64,000 nt of DNA, taken from Prochlorococcus sp. AG-402-I21 (lineage in GTDB: Bacteria; Cyanobacteriota; Cyanobacteriia; PCC-6307; Cyanobiaceae). The position numbers were made by a program, and so were the translations under genes. This document shows, one piece after another, positions 10,420 to 60,193 of this stretch (positions within the stretch are counted from its first letter, which is position 1; each line of letters opens with the position of its first letter). The stretch lies in contig QCHZ01000002.1 in the NCBI GenBank assembly GCA_003216955.1, positions 1 to 64,000 on the forward strand, read 5' to 3'. The notes beneath the pieces were generated by a model. It did no database searches and had not been told where the DNA came from. It saw only the letters and a list, made by a program, of their open reading frames with translations.

Positions 10420-11481
10420 ATGCCAGAGACAAGCTTAAAAAAAATTGCATATCACACACTTCAACAAGGAAAAACTCTTGCTGGGTTAGCTCATAAAGAG
10501 TTGAGTACGAAGTTAATGGAAGTATTTGCACCTGAAGCAGCTCCTGGAAAATTTCCAATCAATAAAGATCTAATAAAAGAAGTTAGACGCTCAATGGAAA
10601 ATCTGGAAAATATTGATTGGAAAGAAGCAGAGGCAGGAATCTATCCAAAATCACAACTTTTCGAAGCTCCATGGATTGAGTGGGCAAAGAAATATCCTCT
10701 TGTCTGGCTCGACATGCCCCAAACATGGCAAAGGCGTAAAAAAAATAAAACTAGAGAAATCCCCAGAAATGTAAGGGAGGAAGAATATCCTGATTATTAT
10801 TTGCAAAATTTTCATCACCAAACAGATGGTTACTTAAGTAAGCACTCAGCTGAAATTTATGACCTACAAGTTGAGATTCTCTTTAATGGAACAGCTGATT
10901 CCATGAGAAGAAGAGTTTTATCTCCTTTAAAAACAGGTCTAAAAAAATTTTCAAATGAAGACTCAAAGAAAGTAAAAGTTTTAGACATCGCTACGGGAAC
11001 TGGAAGAACACTGCAGCAAATACAAAGTGCATTACCAAAAGTAGAACTTTATGGCTTAGATTTATCAGGCTCATACCTAAAGCAAGCAAGTAAATATCTA
11101 AGTTCCAGAAGCGGTGATCTTGTTCAACTGACAAAAGGCAATGCAGAAAAAATGCCTTATTCATCTGAGAGTTTTCAAGCATTAACTTGTGTTTTTCTAT
11201 TTCACGAACTTCCTAGAGAGGCACGACAGAATGTTTTAAAAGAATGCTTTAGATTGTTAGAACCTGGTGGGACACTAGTTCTTGCTGACTCCATTCAAAT
11301 AGAAGATTCTCCAAAATTCACTCCAATCATGGAAAACTTTCATAAAATATTCCATGAACCTTATTACAGAGATTACATCGTAGATAACATAAACTTAAGA
11401 TTAGAAGAAAGTGGTTTTTCATCAATATCTTCAGAATCTCATTTTATGACTAAAGTATGGAAAGCAAACAAGCCAGCATAA
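10420..11481 (+). CDS. Class I SAM-dependent methyltransferase
   Basis: A 353-residue protein with an N-terminal domain of about 185 residues, rich in aromatic and charged residues (SQLFEAPWIEW, YYLQNFHHQTDGYLS), and a C-terminal Rossmann methyltransferase domain. SAM-binding motif I is VLDIATGTGRTL, motif II includes ELYGLDLSGSYL, and the post-motif LLEPGGTLVLADS resembles UbiE/MenG-type enzymes. Substrate unknown; the long N-terminal region sets it apart from simple UbiE proteins. It has its own start after the glnA terminator. Confidence 0.85.
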   Translation: MPETSLKKIAYHTLQQGKTLAGLAHKELSTKLMEVFAPEAAPGKFPINKDLIKEVRRSMENLENIDWKEAEAGIYPKSQLFEAPWIEWAKKYPLVWLDMPQTWQRRKKNKTREIPRNVREEEYPDYYLQNFHHQTDGYLSKHSAEIYDLQVEILFNGTADSMRRRVLSPLKTGLKKFSNEDSKKVKVLDIATGTGRTLQQIQSALPKVELYGLDLSGSYLKQASKYLSSRSGDLVQLTKGNAEKMPYSSESFQALTCVFLFHELPREARQNVLKECFRLLEPGGTLVLADSIQIEDSPKFTPIMENFHKIFHEPYYRDYIVDNINLRLEESGFSSISSESHFMTKVWKANKPA

Positions 11482-54859: not shown

Positions 54860-55123
54860 ATGACTACAACAAATAAACCATTAAAGATAGGTGGCGCAAG
54901 TACTAATGATGCACTTATCGATCAACTTAGAGCTTGTAAAAACCAAGAAGAAATTTTGAAATTCGAGAAATGGTTCAATTCCAATATTGAATCTGACAAA
55001 CTTTATATAAGAATATGTGAACTACTAAAAAACAGAAGTATTTCAAGAGCATTAGGATCAAAGTGGCTCCTAACACTTATTGAAGATAGAGAAAATACTA
55101 TAAATAAGCTATCGGTTCAATAA
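54860..55123 (+). CDS. Hypothetical helical protein, 87 aa
   Basis: A soluble all-helical protein with the central segment EILKFEKWFNSNIESDKLYI and a C-terminal SKWLLTLIEDRENTINKL. Start ATG 54860. No catalytic motif or membrane helix seen. No family recognised. Confidence 0.6.
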   Translation: MTTTNKPLKIGGASTNDALIDQLRACKNQEEILKFEKWFNSNIESDKLYIRICELLKNRSISRALGSKWLLTLIEDRENTINKLSVQ

Positions 55124-55173
55124 TTTTTTATTTAAGTCTAATAAACCAAAATCAAATGTATAGTCCTTTAATT

Positions 55174-55368
55174 TTAGAAAGGGAATGGTCCTGATGCTCC
55201 GCTTGATGAAGTAAAGCCGGAGAGAGCCCAAATTCCAAAGGAGAACAGTGCGCATCCAATAAAAAACATCAAATGAGCTACATAACGATATTTCTCTTTT
55301 TGACTAATACCACCCTCCATAGGAAGGTCTCCAAGGAAACGAGATTGTGGGCTCTTGTTGCTTGCCAT
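55174..55368 (-). CDS. Single-helix membrane protein, 64 aa
   Basis: A 64-residue protein with a polar N-terminus (SRFLGDLPMEGGISQKEKYR), one membrane helix (YVAHLMFFIGCALFSFGIW) and a serine-glycine-proline tail. The helix resembles that of the protein at 21195-21395. No chlorophyll-binding motif. The clear start and even composition suggest a conserved small thylakoid or plasma membrane protein. Confidence 0.6.
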   Translation of the reverse strand: MASNKSPQSRFLGDLPMEGGISQKEKYRYVAHLMFFIGCALFSFGIWALSGFTSSSGASGPFPF

Positions 55369-55843
55369 GAATGTTATTTACCAATGTTTGAAATTATGGC
55401 ATAAAGAATCTCACTGACATTTAATAACATAGAGAATCTATAGGTTCTGAAATTTTTTAAGGTCTAGAAGGCTCCTCTTTGAAACTGAATTAATAGCAAA
55501 AGGGAGGAAATTGTTATTTGAGGAATTTTTTTAAGATTTCAGAAGATAATAAGATAGAAATTCAAGTAGAGAGTTAGTCGAATGCTTTGTGGCTCTAGTC
55601 TTAAAAACTAGCTGTTATTACCATAAAACTAACAATATATCCGCTATAAATACTTGATAGAATAAGCTTTTAATTAATTTTTGATTGCACAATATCCCTT
55701 AATTATTAATACTACAAAGTTGACTATCTCTGTTTTTTATAACAAAGTCGTTAACTTTCGTTCTTTTTCAAACAAGTGGTCAATCGCGGTCATGAAGACT
55801 AGCGTCGCAACAAGGGCTGTCAACCATCTCTAATTTAACTGTT
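55369..55843. other. Intergenic region holding a tRNA-Ser remnant
   Basis: 475 bases without a convincing ORF. Its only recognisable content is the 5' half of a decayed tRNA-Ser at 55568-55612. Confidence 0.6.
55568..55612 (+). pseudogene. Decayed 5' half of tRNA-Ser
   Basis: Aligns without gaps to the first 45 bases of the intact tRNA-Ser at 57199, with 39 identical by hand alignment. It covers the acceptor 5' strand, D arm and anticodon arm, ending at CTAGC exactly where the anticodon stem closes; what follows is unrelated. The anticodon-loop base G is changed to A. Short upstream flanks are also similar (AAATT-rich). Confidence 0.8.
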
Positions 55844-56191
55844 TTAAGAGAAAACTCTTGGGTATGGAGTTTTTCCATTCATTAATGATGTGTCTATTAG
55901 TTTGCAGATATTCATTAATGCATTCAGACCAAATCCAGGACCTGTCGGACCATCAATGAATTCCTGAAATTCTTCTACCGTAATATTCTCCTTTGTTTCC
56001 CAAATACAGTAAACAGGTCCATCAGAAGTCACAGCATTAGCAGAGTGGTTGTAAAAACCTTTTTCTTTATTTGCTGCTACAGCCTCATCCCATCCACCGC
56101 CAGGTGCCATTGCTGTATAAGCGGTTTCCCACCACTTAGATGAGGTACCAGCTCTAAATTCGTGATGAACGATATAAAAATTAGAGGCCAT
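55844..56191 (-). CDS. Hypothetical protein, 115 aa
   Basis: A soluble protein resembling small dimeric alpha-beta barrel proteins in layout: strand FYIVHHEFRAG, helix KWWETAYTAMAPGGGWDEA, strand PVYCIWETKENITVEEFQEF. A glycine-rich turn (DGPTGPGFG) precedes the last helix. No family recognised with confidence. It lies between the tRNA-Ser remnants. Confidence 0.6.
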   Translation of the reverse strand: MASNFYIVHHEFRAGTSSKWWETAYTAMAPGGGWDEAVAANKEKGFYNHSANAVTSDGPVYCIWETKENITVEEFQEFIDGPTGPGFGLNALMNICKLIDTSLMNGKTPYPRVFS

Positions 56192-56194
56192 CAA

Positions 56195-56474
56195 AGATAT
56201 ACAAGAACCAAAAGGATTACATATAATTGGAAACTTTTATGTATTAAAGACATTAGATCAATTATTTAAAACTCTATATAGGGATAGATTTAATTTCATT
56301 TTCGACTGAGTGGCTTTAATTCATTTCTTTATTCATTAGACAAGGAAGACATTGTCTACTTCCCCTCCAAGCTGATTTAAGAGTTGCTTAATCTATTAGC
56401 GGACCTGTGCTTTTAAAGTACATTTTAACAATTAAAGCCTTCCTTCAAATTTACTGGTCCCACTCTTTGATCAA
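56195..56474. other. Intergenic stretch without recognisable genes
   Basis: 280 bases between two minus-strand genes; short frames only. No terminator or repeat recognised. Confidence 0.5.
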
Positions 56475-56855
56475 TTAACCAGCGACAGAAGCTCCAGAAA
56501 TTAATCCCATCACAGCACCAATCAATCCTGTTCCATACACACAATAAAAAGTGTGCTTTTGTTTTGGCCTCCACCGCTTAATTTTTGCTAGATCCCATTT
56601 ATTAATCTGATCCAACGTTTTTTCAATAGTTAAATTAGAACCCGTGCGATAATTATTAATTTTCACTCCTCCATAGATTCCTACACATAACCCAACCAAA
56701 CCGAATAATAAAGCACCAAAGAAGGGGCCAAGTGATTCAACAAAATTAATTGCTATTCCAAGAAGAATAAATATACCTATAATTGTTCCACAGCCGGAAA
56801 GACAACCTTGGTTGTTTTGGACATTTTGAACTACTATTGATTGCTTTCCAAACAT
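56475..56855 (-). CDS. Multi-helix membrane protein, hypothetical
   Basis: A 126-residue protein with two adjoining N-terminal helices (IIGIFILLGIAINFVESLG, then FFGALLFGLVGLCVGIYGG) and a third near the C-terminus (GLIGAVMGLISGASVAG). Between them is a basic loop, KWDLAKIKRWRPKQKHTF. Lies within the interval between the two tRNA remnants. No family recognised. Confidence 0.6.
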   Translation of the reverse strand: MFGKQSIVVQNVQNNQGCLSGCGTIIGIFILLGIAINFVESLGPFFGALLFGLVGLCVGIYGGVKINNYRTGSNLTIEKTLDQINKWDLAKIKRWRPKQKHTFYCVYGTGLIGAVMGLISGASVAG

Positions 56856-57198
56856 TTTAAAATCTCTATAAAATACTTATGGAATAATAATCTTTCTTAC
56901 TTACCTTTTCTAGCTAATCTAGTAATACTCATCAAAGAATCAAAAAACTTTTAACTTTATCATCTGAAATCGATTGTTATCACTTAAGAAACGGAAGATT
57001 TAAAAGAATCAGATAAAACGACTATCCAATCGGTTATTAATCATCACAACCTCAACTATCAAATATCCATACTCGCCAACCTCCATGGACTGTAATTTTT
57101 CCAAAACAATTGCATTGACTAGATTTTCTACTTATAGATTTTTACTTTTTCAAAATTAATTTGGAAAAATCCTAAGTTAATGATGTAAAATTTGAGGT
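56856..57198. other. Intergenic region upstream of tRNA-Ser
   Basis: 343 bases. On the minus strand a start-less frame ends at 57052 and reads CNCFGKITVHGGWRVWIF, which may be the end of a lost small gene. Nothing else recognised. Confidence 0.4.
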
Positions 57199-57285
57199 GG
57201 AGAGTTGGTCGAGTGGTTTATGGCTCTAGTCTTGAAAACTAGCATGGGGGCAACTCCATCGGGGGTTCGAATCCCCCACTCTCCG
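57199..57285 (+). tRNA. trnS-UGA: tRNA-Ser (anticodon UGA)
   Basis: An 87-base class II tRNA with the acceptor stem GGAGAGT/ACTCTCC, D arm TGGTCGAGTGGTTTA, anticodon arm CTAGT-CTTGAAA-ACTAG (anticodon TGA), a long variable arm (ATGGGGGCAACTCCAT) and T arm GGGGGTTCGAATCCCCC, with discriminator G at 57285. CCA is not encoded. Downstream CGGAGAG can pair with the tRNA 3' end CTCTCCG, which may aid termination or processing. Confidence 0.97.
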
Positions 57286-57499
57286 TTCTATTACGGAGAG
57301 GCTAGTGATATTTAATTATATTTTTAACCTCGTTATTTATTATCTATAATCCAAGATTTGACCGAAAGGAGACCGAAAAAGAAACTAATTAAAAAAATTA
57401 AAAAATTCGAAAGAATTTAATTTAAAACTTATAGTACATCCCTCGGCCTTTGTACTTCAAAAGAACTCAGAAAAGTATTACTTGCACTCAAGTGTCACC

Positions 57500-57564
57500 A
57501 CTCTTGAAAACTACATGGCGGTAACTTGATCGCTGGTTCGTATCCCACAGTCTCAATTCTATTA
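57500..57564 (+). pseudogene. Decayed 3' half of tRNA-Ser with its 3' flank
   Basis: Aligns to bases 31-87 of the intact tRNA plus the following TTCTATTA flank, with about 52 of 65 positions identical and one gap. It begins in the anticodon arm (CTCTTGAAAACTA) and retains the variable and T arms (GGTTCGTATCCCA). The preceding bases do not match a 5' half. Too degraded to fold as a working tRNA. Confidence 0.75.
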
Positions 57565-57609
57565 AATAGCAGAGACAAGTATTTAATTAAATACTTGTCT
57601 CTGCTATTT
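57564..57609. repeat. Perfect 46-base palindrome
   Basis: Two 23-base arms, 57564-57586 and 57587-57609, are exact reverse complements with no spacer (arm begins AAATAGCAGAGACAAGT). It directly adjoins the tRNA-Ser 3' remnant; part of its left arm (AGAGAC) also pairs with the remnant's GTCTC. No T tract follows, so a plain intrinsic terminator is less likely. Confidence 0.9.
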
Positions 57610-57888
57610 GATAAATAAGCAAAATACTAGGAAAATTAATCAAAGAGTCTTAAAAATGATTTATTTTTACGTCTACTAAGATAAGTAAATCAAATATTTA
57701 ATACCTGGAAGAATGCCATAATTCTCATGATTCTTTTGTTTTTTCGTTAAGGTAATTTTAAAATAGCTTTTTTTAGATTTTAAGATACCGATCTGATATC
57801 AATCGAAGCAACCTAGTAAATCTTTAATCTTATTAGGTTTCTTTTCTTAAAAAATTCAAAAAGCCATACCTTACATAATTAAATCAAA

Positions 57889-58059
57889 ATGAAAGAAGAG
57901 CGTTACTTAAAAGACAGAGAAGCAATTGTAAGAGCTGACATTTGGAAAGAGATTACCTCTTCTTGCAAAGGGCTTAGAACTGAGCTCGGATATACAAATA
58001 TCCAAATAGTTGAATTTCTAAAAGAAATAACAAAAACATTTGAAAGAGACCAACTTTGA
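57889..58059 (+). CDS. Small hypothetical helical protein, 56 aa
   Basis: An ATG-started 56-residue ORF of charged, helical character (MKEERYLKDREAIVRADIWK, then VEFLKEITKTFERDQL). One cysteine pair-free segment SSCKGLRTELGY in the middle. No membrane helix. Looks like a real small protein; no family recognised. Confidence 0.5.
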   Translation: MKEERYLKDREAIVRADIWKEITSSCKGLRTELGYTNIQIVEFLKEITKTFERDQL

Positions 58060-58096
58060 ATCCTGCAGATCAAGATTGGATTTTTGTCTTAATGTT

Positions 58097-60193
58097 CTAT
58101 TTTTCTTTAGTTTTTAAGGCTTCATCAATACTTTTTATTGCATTCGGAACACTATTTGAAGCAGACTTCAATCGCCAAAAGGCTCCCCGCGAAAGTGCAG
58201 TAGTATCACCCAAACTTTTAAGCAAGTAATTTGGATTTTTCCTATAAGCTCTATCTGCTATTAAAGATGCCTTCCAAGGGTTCCAAGAGGCAATGTTTAC
58301 GATAGTTCTGTAAGCACTTGGCCAGGGATTATTAGGCAACAAAATTTCTAAATTTCTTAAATAGATATCTGCCTCAGAAGGTCTATTCGATAATATCTTT
58401 AGCAGTGATAGGGACCATAAAGATTCAACATTTTTGGGATCTAAACTTATTTGGGATAACGCCTTATTTTTAACTATATTTTGATATTTAAAATGGCCAT
58501 CAAGCATATGTTCTATTTCTATTTCATCAAAAATTAATTTAATGCCTAATGGACCTTGCTCCATTCCATTTGCTAGTTCAACAAATCTATTATGAAAGTC
58601 ATTTTGCTTAATTGAACTTGAACTTCGCTTCCATAAAGAATAGCTTCCGTCTTTTTCTCTAGGGAATTCTCGCACTTTTATAAAAAGAGAACTATCTCTA
58701 ATCGCTTTATCTAAAGCTATTGAATTACTTGAAACTGAACCTTGGTCCCCTTCAGCCAAAATAATCCAATTAGAGTATTTAAGAACAGGTTCTATATGTA
58801 AAAGGGATTGCCCAAGTTGTCTCCCTAAAATATCTCCACCTTGCATTCTCCCAAAATAACTTACATTATGTTGATTAATATCGGGAGTGCTAGGAACAAC
58901 AATAACTGTTTCTTTTTCATCAAAAGTCTGATCCGATTTAACTATCGATATAATATCTTTAACAGGATAATATTTACTTGGAATTTTTTCTAACGTATTA
59001 AACCTATTAATAGAATTTGAAAATAAAAAGCTTATAGGAGGAATAAATAATAAAAAATAATATTTAAATTTAAAATAAGTATCTAGCCAATCACTCCACT
59101 TAGTGAAGCCAAGAGCTAAAAGTAAAATAATCAACGGGATCGTACATGCAATATATCTTTCATCCTTGTTAGGAATCAAAGTTGTAAAAGTCCAACATGT
59201 TATTAAATTAAAATAAACCCATACCCATTTATAATTATTTTTATTAAAAATATCGACTAATCTCTTTCCAGCGTTAAAAGATCTTACATAGGTTAAGAAG
59301 GCAAGTATTATGCCTGACAAGCCAAAAAAGAAGATAATACTTCCAAACTGATTATCTAAATAGGGAAAATACCAGAAAATACTTTTGAAGGCCAAGACAG
59401 ATGGGTCGCCTTCTATCTTTGCAGATTCAAAAACAGCTCTATAAGTTCCACTTAATATCATTATCCAATTGTGATAAAACCACGGTAAAATTGCTAAAAA
59501 ACAGATAAAAAATAAGCATAAAAATTGTAATCTAAATTTTGTATCTCTTTTAAAAGAAAGAATAAAAATAAAAAATAAAGAAGGTATTACAACTAATAAA
59601 GAGCTCTGCTTAATCAGTAAAGAAGAAGTGCATGCAAAAGTAGCTATTATTAATTGAATCCATTTACCTCCAATTGTTTTATCGCTCCATCTCCCTAGAT
59701 GAAATAAATAAAACGTAATAGCGGAGATCAAAGGTAGCTCCAATACATAATCGGTTCTTAGATGAAATAAGAAAGGAGAAAATGCGCTAATAAGAACAGA
59801 AAAAAGCGCAAATTTTTTTCCTCTCAAATAAAGTCCCCATGAAGCAATATTAAAGATCAAAAATCCATTCCAAAAACTTAAGGACCAGGCAGCTTCATGA
59901 GGGGCATCGCCAGCAAAGGCAATAAAGGCTCCGTTGATTATTGAGGCCAAAGGAGGAATCTTTGGAGATTTATCCAGCAAAGAACTAAAGTCTGAAACCC
60001 CATTTCCACCTAATAAAGAAAGTGCACGAGCATGGTCAAGAGCACTATTAAGATAATCAGCCTGATCCCATGAGGGAGTATTGCTATAAAAATTCCACCA
60101 AATCCGATCAGCAAAGGTGGATATAATCCATATTAATAAAATTGAAATCCAAAAAATATATTTAGAGTGATTAATATTTTTCTGAAAAGGCAT
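58097..60193 (-). CDS. GT39-like membrane glycosyltransferase with TPR-like tail
   Basis: About 698 residues with roughly ten membrane helices in the first 420 residues, then a soluble C-terminal region. The early periplasmic loop carries PSWDQADYLNSALD, with the paired acidic residues that GT39/ArnT-type enzymes use, and FLFHLRTDYVLELPLISAIT follows the same pattern. The tail (SLSLLKILSNRPSEADIYLR) resembles tetratricopeptide helices. It probably transfers sugar from a polyprenyl-phosphate donor at the outer face of the membrane. ATG 60193 is preferred; the TTG at 60208 would overlap the upstream gene. Confidence 0.7.
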   Translation of the reverse strand: MPFQKNINHSKYIFWISILLIWIISTFADRIWWNFYSNTPSWDQADYLNSALDHARALSLLGGNGVSDFSSLLDKSPKIPPLASIINGAFIAFAGDAPHEAAWSLSFWNGFLIFNIASWGLYLRGKKFALFSVLISAFSPFLFHLRTDYVLELPLISAITFYLFHLGRWSDKTIGGKWIQLIIATFACTSSLLIKQSSLLVVIPSLFFIFILSFKRDTKFRLQFLCLFFICFLAILPWFYHNWIMILSGTYRAVFESAKIEGDPSVLAFKSIFWYFPYLDNQFGSIIFFFGLSGIILAFLTYVRSFNAGKRLVDIFNKNNYKWVWVYFNLITCWTFTTLIPNKDERYIACTIPLIILLLALGFTKWSDWLDTYFKFKYYFLLFIPPISFLFSNSINRFNTLEKIPSKYYPVKDIISIVKSDQTFDEKETVIVVPSTPDINQHNVSYFGRMQGGDILGRQLGQSLLHIEPVLKYSNWIILAEGDQGSVSSNSIALDKAIRDSSLFIKVREFPREKDGSYSLWKRSSSSIKQNDFHNRFVELANGMEQGPLGIKLIFDEIEIEHMLDGHFKYQNIVKNKALSQISLDPKNVESLWSLSLLKILSNRPSEADIYLRNLEILLPNNPWPSAYRTIVNIASWNPWKASLIADRAYRKNPNYLLKSLGDTTALSRGAFWRLKSASNSVPNAIKSIDEALKTKEK

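Follow-up and report, generated by a model that had tools for sequence, protein, structure and literature searches.

How does an intact tRNA gene come to lie between the decayed halves of another tRNA gene of the same kind? This question is raised by the first 64,000 nucleotides of a contig from Prochlorococcus sp. AG-402-I21, the whole stretch that we analysed and that we call the window. The only tRNA gene detected in these 64 kb by ARAGORN is a tRNA-Ser(UGA) on the + strand (Table 1). An earlier note on this DNA had proposed that an old tRNA-Ser was split by DNA bringing an intact copy, the 1.9 kb or so between the halves being the insert or its remnant. Empty sites, rejoined halves and recombinase-bearing relatives now support this proposal. 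With a probability of about 90%, we consider that an integrative element, which carried a whole tRNA-Ser(UGA) gene and integrated at the anticodon loop of the native gene, has left its decayed remnant in the window. This accounts for the presence of an intact tRNA between the decayed halves of another.

Local alignment to the intact gene places a 5' half at about 55569-55612 (tRNA positions 3-46, 39/44 identical) and a 3' half at about 57493-57554 (tRNA positions 24-86, 49/63 identical), both on the + strand as the intact copy. These values bear out the 45-base 5' half (39/45) of the earlier note and come close to its 3' half (about 52/65, 215 bases downstream), since the distance from the intact copy to the 3' half is about 207-216 bases, depending on the chosen start of the half. 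The alignment scores of the two halves (34.0 and 33.5) are about twice the maximum of 17.0 obtained with 300 Markov shuffles of the surrounding 3.3 kb, and the next best match in the 64 kb scores 16.3. As had been described, both halves end at the anticodon arm and share the orientation of the intact gene; the anticodon-loop core reads CTTAAAA in the 5' half (55600-55606) and CTTGAAA in the 3' half (57503-57509). The old -10 box of the native tRNA, TAAAAT in relatives, has decayed to TAGAAA in the window. A perfect 46-bp palindrome (57564-57609, AAATAGCAGAGACAAGTATTTAA and its complement) lies 3' of the 3' half, within the trailer that belonged to the displaced tRNA, and is probably an old terminator hairpin. 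Rfam microRNA matches at 57549-57622 were rejected as matches to a palindrome with scores below the gathering threshold.

Table 1. Features of the tRNA-Ser(UGA) locus, with positions in the window.
Feature	Position	Strand	Basis
Native upstream flank of the original tRNA-Ser	55369-55567	+	80-84% identity to the region immediately preceding the intact tRNA in empty-site genomes
5' half of the displaced native tRNA-Ser (attL)	55568-55613	+	Local alignment to the intact gene (see text)
Left arm-type repeats (GTTAACTTTCGTTC; GTGGTCAATCGCGGTCA), putative integrase arm sites	55747-55792	+	Aligned with relatives
Probable vestige of the recombinase start, GTG GTC AAT CGC GGT CAT GAA GAC TAG	55776-55802	+	Place and reading as in relatives
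Cargo ORF, 116 aa, no known family	55844-56194	-	94-96% DNA identity in G005, G011 and G029
Conserved block of 84 bp	56253-56336		Present in islands of other relatives too
Cargo ORF, 126 aa, unknown	56475-56855	-	
-10-like TAAAAT, promoter of the element-borne tRNA	57186-57191	+	Identical hexamer at the identical place upstream of native tRNAs
Intact element-borne tRNA-Ser(UGA)	57198-57286	+	ARAGORN; RF00005, 54.2 bits
Right arm-type repeats (TTTGACCGAAAGGAGACCGAAAA), inverted relative to the left arm	57357-57379	-	TTGACCGAAAGTTGACCGAA in G023, similar in G029
3' half of the displaced native tRNA-Ser and start of the trailer (attR)	57494-57564	+	Local alignment to the intact gene (see text)
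Native downstream flank of the original tRNA	57565-58090	+	83-86% identity; contiguous with the intact tRNA in empty-site genomes

The genome to which the window belongs (1.73 Mb, 33% GC, 96% complete) has Prochlorococcus single-cell genomes as its close relatives. Its serine tRNAs are GGA, GCT, CGA and the one UGA copy of the window, and a search for a second UGA tRNA in this 96% complete genome found none. Because the genome has a single UGA gene, splitting it is expected to be lethal without a replacement. Judging from this gene content, tRNA-Ser(UGA) is probably essential and the host probably depends on the copy of the element.

The locus was compared in 60 relatives. Uninterrupted tRNA-Ser genes without the 1.9 kb, for which the earlier note had suggested looking, were found in 12 congeneric genomes (G002, G007, G009, G016, G020, G021, G022, G025, G026, G031, G033 and G034). 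In these empty-site genomes, the sequence matching window positions 55000-55612 joins directly that matching 57502-58300, and the two matches overlap by 14 bp at the anticodon loop. Eight genomes, including that of the window, have the 5' half, the intact copy and the 3' half; the others are G005, G011, G023, G029, AG-412-P08, AG-436-M02 and AG-436-C13. Seven of the eight show a clear 3' half, separated from the intact copy by about 190-215 bp, and that of G029 is barely recognisable; the 5' half lies 2.0 to 4.3 kb from the intact copy in G005, G011, G023 and G029. On a tree of the flanking genes, built from the 1.4 kb upstream flank adjoining the site, at least 10 changes between occupied and empty are required, and occupied genomes have well-supported empty sisters (G023 with G031, 100/99; G036 with G012, 100/100), which means that this site was occupied or vacated many times.

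The least decayed halves are those of G023 (46/48; 97% over 67 nt), in which the insertion is recent. On its contig (AG-311-D23, L087 2523-7251), we observed halves that are 96-97% intact around a cargo of a TPR protein and a 168-aa ORF, without recombinase, which makes it a candidate non-autonomous element; mobilisation in trans or later loss of the recombinase may explain this state.

A complete element is present in AG-436-C13 (L230), where about 9 kb extend from attL at 1952 to attR at 11061 in the order 5' half, recombinase, cargo, intact tRNA and 3' half. Its tyrosine recombinase of 402 aa directly follows attL (PF00589, E 8.5e-6; PHROG integrase, E 3.6e-13), and the other products of the element include a Prim-Pol/AAA primase, a second short integrase-like protein and an HTH/Cox-like (excisionase-like) protein. 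AG-363-G03 (G036) has the 5' half, an intact recombinase, cargo and the intact tRNA, without the right arm and the 3' half. The recombinase of intact relatives is just under the Pfam cut-off, and remnants of the gene directly follow attL in AG-412-P08 and AG-436-M02. A recombinase between the halves, which the earlier note had also suggested looking for, is therefore found from 5' half to 3' half in AG-436-C13, and with the 5' half and the intact tRNA in AG-363-G03. In both the window and AG-436-C13, neither attL, with its 5' half only, nor attR, with its 3' half only, rebuilds a functional tRNA.

When the two halves of AG-436-C13 are joined at the 7-bp loop CTTGAAA, they give exactly the 90-nt tRNA-Ser gene that is intact in AG-363-M21 (G072), and the tRNA enclosed in the element differs from the joined halves at 5 of 90 positions. 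In AG-436-M02 (L127), the joined halves match the native type at 79/85 positions versus 68/84 for the window type; they are of the GGAGGGG...CCCCUCC type, which is intact in related genomes. The tRNA that they enclose has the acceptor-stem type of the window and is identical over 89 nt to the copy carried in AG-436-C13. The halves thus come from one tRNA in each of these genomes, as the earlier note had supposed for the window. Since an identical enclosed tRNA is found with different displaced natives, one tRNA has moved into two native genes, and the element carries a whole tRNA gene. In the carried tRNA (L230 10698-10787; L127 17026-17114, reversed), we also observed that the anticodon stem is compensated, with CUGGU/ACCAG in place of CUAGU/ACUAG. 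This stem alters the flanks of the core and might shield the carried copy from its own recombinase.

In the window, the insert is reduced to 1.9 kb and no recombinase remains in it. A search of the whole genome for the recombinase gave only a 24% match, of a kind present in nearly every congener. The short reading frame at 55776-55802 (Table 1) probably is a vestige of the start of the recombinase, the remaining gene having been lost, since recombinases of relatives start at the matching place (MVKSGH in G036, MVNSGQ in G070). Neither Pfam nor PHROG gives a match for the small ORFs of the window. The 116-aa ORF and the 84-bp block co-occur in other islands of relatives, as in L212 (630-977, 4344-4427 and 7710-8056), and look like cargo that islands share. 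By eye, a 164-aa ORF in L212 looks similar to the ORFs of 150 aa in the L134 and L230 elements.

Putative arm sites flank the core. The left repeats (GGTCAACTTTCGGTC ... GTGGTCAA.AGCGGTCA) are found about 150-190 bp after the 5' half, and inverted copies (TTGACCGAAAGTTGACCGAA) are located after the intact tRNA, in the spacer that precedes the 3' half. In G023, the left and right arms share an exact inverted match of 15 nt, the shuffle maximum being 13. The left arm of the window aligns with GGTCAACTTTCGGTC / GTGGTCAAAAGCGGTCA in G023, G036, L126 and L127, and also in G070; the arm sites of the window are readable by alignment and are not significant alone, their longest inverted match being 9. 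Inverted repeats on both sides of the core are the layout of one attP, which places the complete tRNA inside the element. From their arrangement, these repeats would function as arm sites in the action of the integrase. In viral contigs, queries with the right-arm 15-mer, two recombinases and the primase found no free or packaged form and no relative; 18 matches to the arm pattern were obtained there, at 41-62% GC and without tRNA-Ser. The built-in intact copy, the putative arm sites around the core and the layout of tRNA-dependent lysogeny are what we add to the earlier note.

Based on these observations, we propose that a tyrosine recombinase, whose catalysis is deduced from sequence, would integrate the element into the only tRNA-Ser(UGA) gene, at its anticodon loop. 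The attP would share with its target the anticodon-loop core only, and because identity is limited to this core, the native gene would be split without being rebuilt, leaving its 5' half at attL and its 3' half at attR. The complete tRNA-Ser(UGA) gene of the element, with its own promoter, lies about 210 bp inside the right end, and the host would have survived because the element supplies it. The circular form would have the order tRNA, arm sites, core, arm sites, recombinase, with an expected attP junction of tRNA - GACCGAAAGTTGACC - CTATAGTCTTGAAAACTACCG - recombinase. In the window, the recombinase and most of the cargo have disappeared and the halves have drifted, and the host probably relies on the tRNA of the element. 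In the lineage of the window, the recombinase presumably acted in trans or was lost later.

Could the layout have arisen instead from two insertions, of an element bearing a 5' half on the left and one bearing a 3' half on the right, with the middle copy a chimera of both? Genomes changed on the left only (G036, G028 and G032) or scarred on the right only (G001, G003 and G010) would fit such a history, and related recombinases do use half-restoring geometries at tRNA-Ser(UGA). However, the right spacer measures no more than about 210 bp and has one arm cluster, the left element lacks matching arms upstream of the intact tRNA, and the arm sites occur once on each side of the split core, as in one attP. 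In addition, two elements with different displaced natives have the identical complete tRNA, and AG-436-C13 nearly presents the tRNA, both arms and the recombinase as a single unit. We therefore consider two insertions improbable. In the right-scarred genomes, the native upstream flank leads into the intact tRNA, which is followed after about 200 bp by a decayed 3' half; one-sided scars of either kind probably result from later recombination between the repeated tRNA segments. AG-402-N21 (L137), examined as a case of fully replaced tRNA, was dropped because its placement in the tree is unsettled. In G036 (L097 6145-6270, reversed) and G028 (L090 3403-3540), an inverted repeat of the tRNA 3' strand lies directly downstream (CCCCCACTCTCC ... 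GGAGAGTGGGG); this hairpin would rival tRNA folding or serve as terminator.

Two other explanations have hardly any chance of being correct. If homologous recombination had duplicated the tRNA in tandem and pseudogene decay had followed, with no mobile element involved, the copies would be related and all in the same orientation, as we observed. But the break falls at the 7-bp anticodon loop in every genome, relatives have a recombinase between the halves, and the middle copy of AG-436-M02 is foreign; the recombinase-bearing relatives and the empty sites, with their matching flanks, refute such a duplication. The same extremely low credence goes to an ordinary integration in which attP restores the tRNA and the other half is a chance resemblance or an unrelated relic. 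Elements that target tRNAs usually have this geometry, which is also found for relatives of the recombinase at tRNA-Arg and tRNA-Ser; both halves are nevertheless far above chance, and the rejoined halves of AG-436-C13 and AG-436-M02 refute it. Integration of one element carrying the whole tRNA is thus the reading that we retain.

The recombinase was found in 25 genomes of 13 genera in a search of 400 genomes of the family. Where a tRNA adjoins it, this is mostly tRNA-Ser(UGA) and sometimes tRNA-Arg(CCU). At some loci the 3' end of the tRNA faces the recombinase, which is the usual type, and at others the 5' end does. This reverse type is exemplified by L134, in which the arm repeats precede the intact tRNA; because its recombinase is on the 5' side of the rebuilt tRNA, the L134 attP carries the 5' half. 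In G336, the recombinase has a 5' half beside it, and an intact tRNA is preceded by arm-like repeats. Carrying the whole tRNA, as the element in the window does, is a third solution beside these two. The island in L134 (6716-15637, reversed; AG-409-N21) is satellite-like, measures 8.8 kb and occupies this same tRNA; its genes include Prim-Pol, VapE-like and two integrase-type ones.

It is fairly likely that a family of satellite-like elements, present in Prochlorococcus and in related picocyanobacteria, transfers whole, essential tRNA-Ser(UGA) genes from lineage to lineage, each integration swapping the host gene so that the host cannot lose that end of the element, and that the recombinase family has at least three solutions at one tRNA (3' half, 5' half or whole gene). 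This would be a concrete route for horizontal replacement of essential tRNA genes. Integration dependent on a carried tRNA was described only in 2024, in actinobacteriophages, and here it is seen in elements of a phototroph that abounds in the sea. With empty sites, complete copies and old remnants next to each other, its long-term result becomes visible, a core, non-redundant tRNA gene turned foreign and a host presumably dependent on it.

The defining paper on the tycheposons of Prochlorococcus is that of Hackl et al. 2023 (Cell). Our elements share with tycheposons, which are outlined in part in PMC10872708 and PMC11389934, the host genus, a tRNA target, cargo or satellite genes, a tyrosine recombinase weakly matched by the Pfam phage-integrase model and, in intact relatives, a primase-type replication gene. 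With its about 9 kb and its primase and excisionase-like genes, AG-436-C13 fits the size of 4-200 kb quoted for tycheposons, whereas the window copy, at 1.9 kb and without recombinase, does not. A deep-branching tyrosine recombinase is characteristic of tycheposons; that of the intact relatives is just under the Pfam cut-off. The intact relatives are likely tycheposons. Another known kind of element reverses the usual orientation of the tRNA (Zhao and Williams 2002, as cited in PMC6563490) and displaces its 5' half, as in L134, L136/L143 and G336; such elements rebuild the tRNA from their own 5' half, whereas the window type rebuilds neither half.

The closest comparison is with tRNA-dependent lysogeny of actinobacteriophages such as Fionnbharth, Gaia and Mollymur, with a short att core, a tRNA that is not rebuilt and a second tRNA, of matching isotype, carried by the element (Guerrero-Bustamante and Hatfull 2024, PMC10865867). 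Here as well, attB is in a host tRNA gene, the common core is the 7-bp loop CTTGAAA with a few flanking bp, an intact tRNA-Ser(UGA) lies between attL and attR and is foreign to the host in AG-436-M02, and the 96% complete genome has no second host gene for this tRNA. The integrase is part of the element in those phages; it is absent from the window and present after attL in G036 and AG-436-C13. In contrast to the actinobacteriophages, the hosts are cyanobacteria, the element is small and satellite-like instead of a full phage genome, the tRNA is tRNA-Ser(UGA) and it is placed at the other end of the element from the recombinase, about 210 bp away from the core; moreover, old remnants without recombinase persist, in which the host retains the tRNA of the element.
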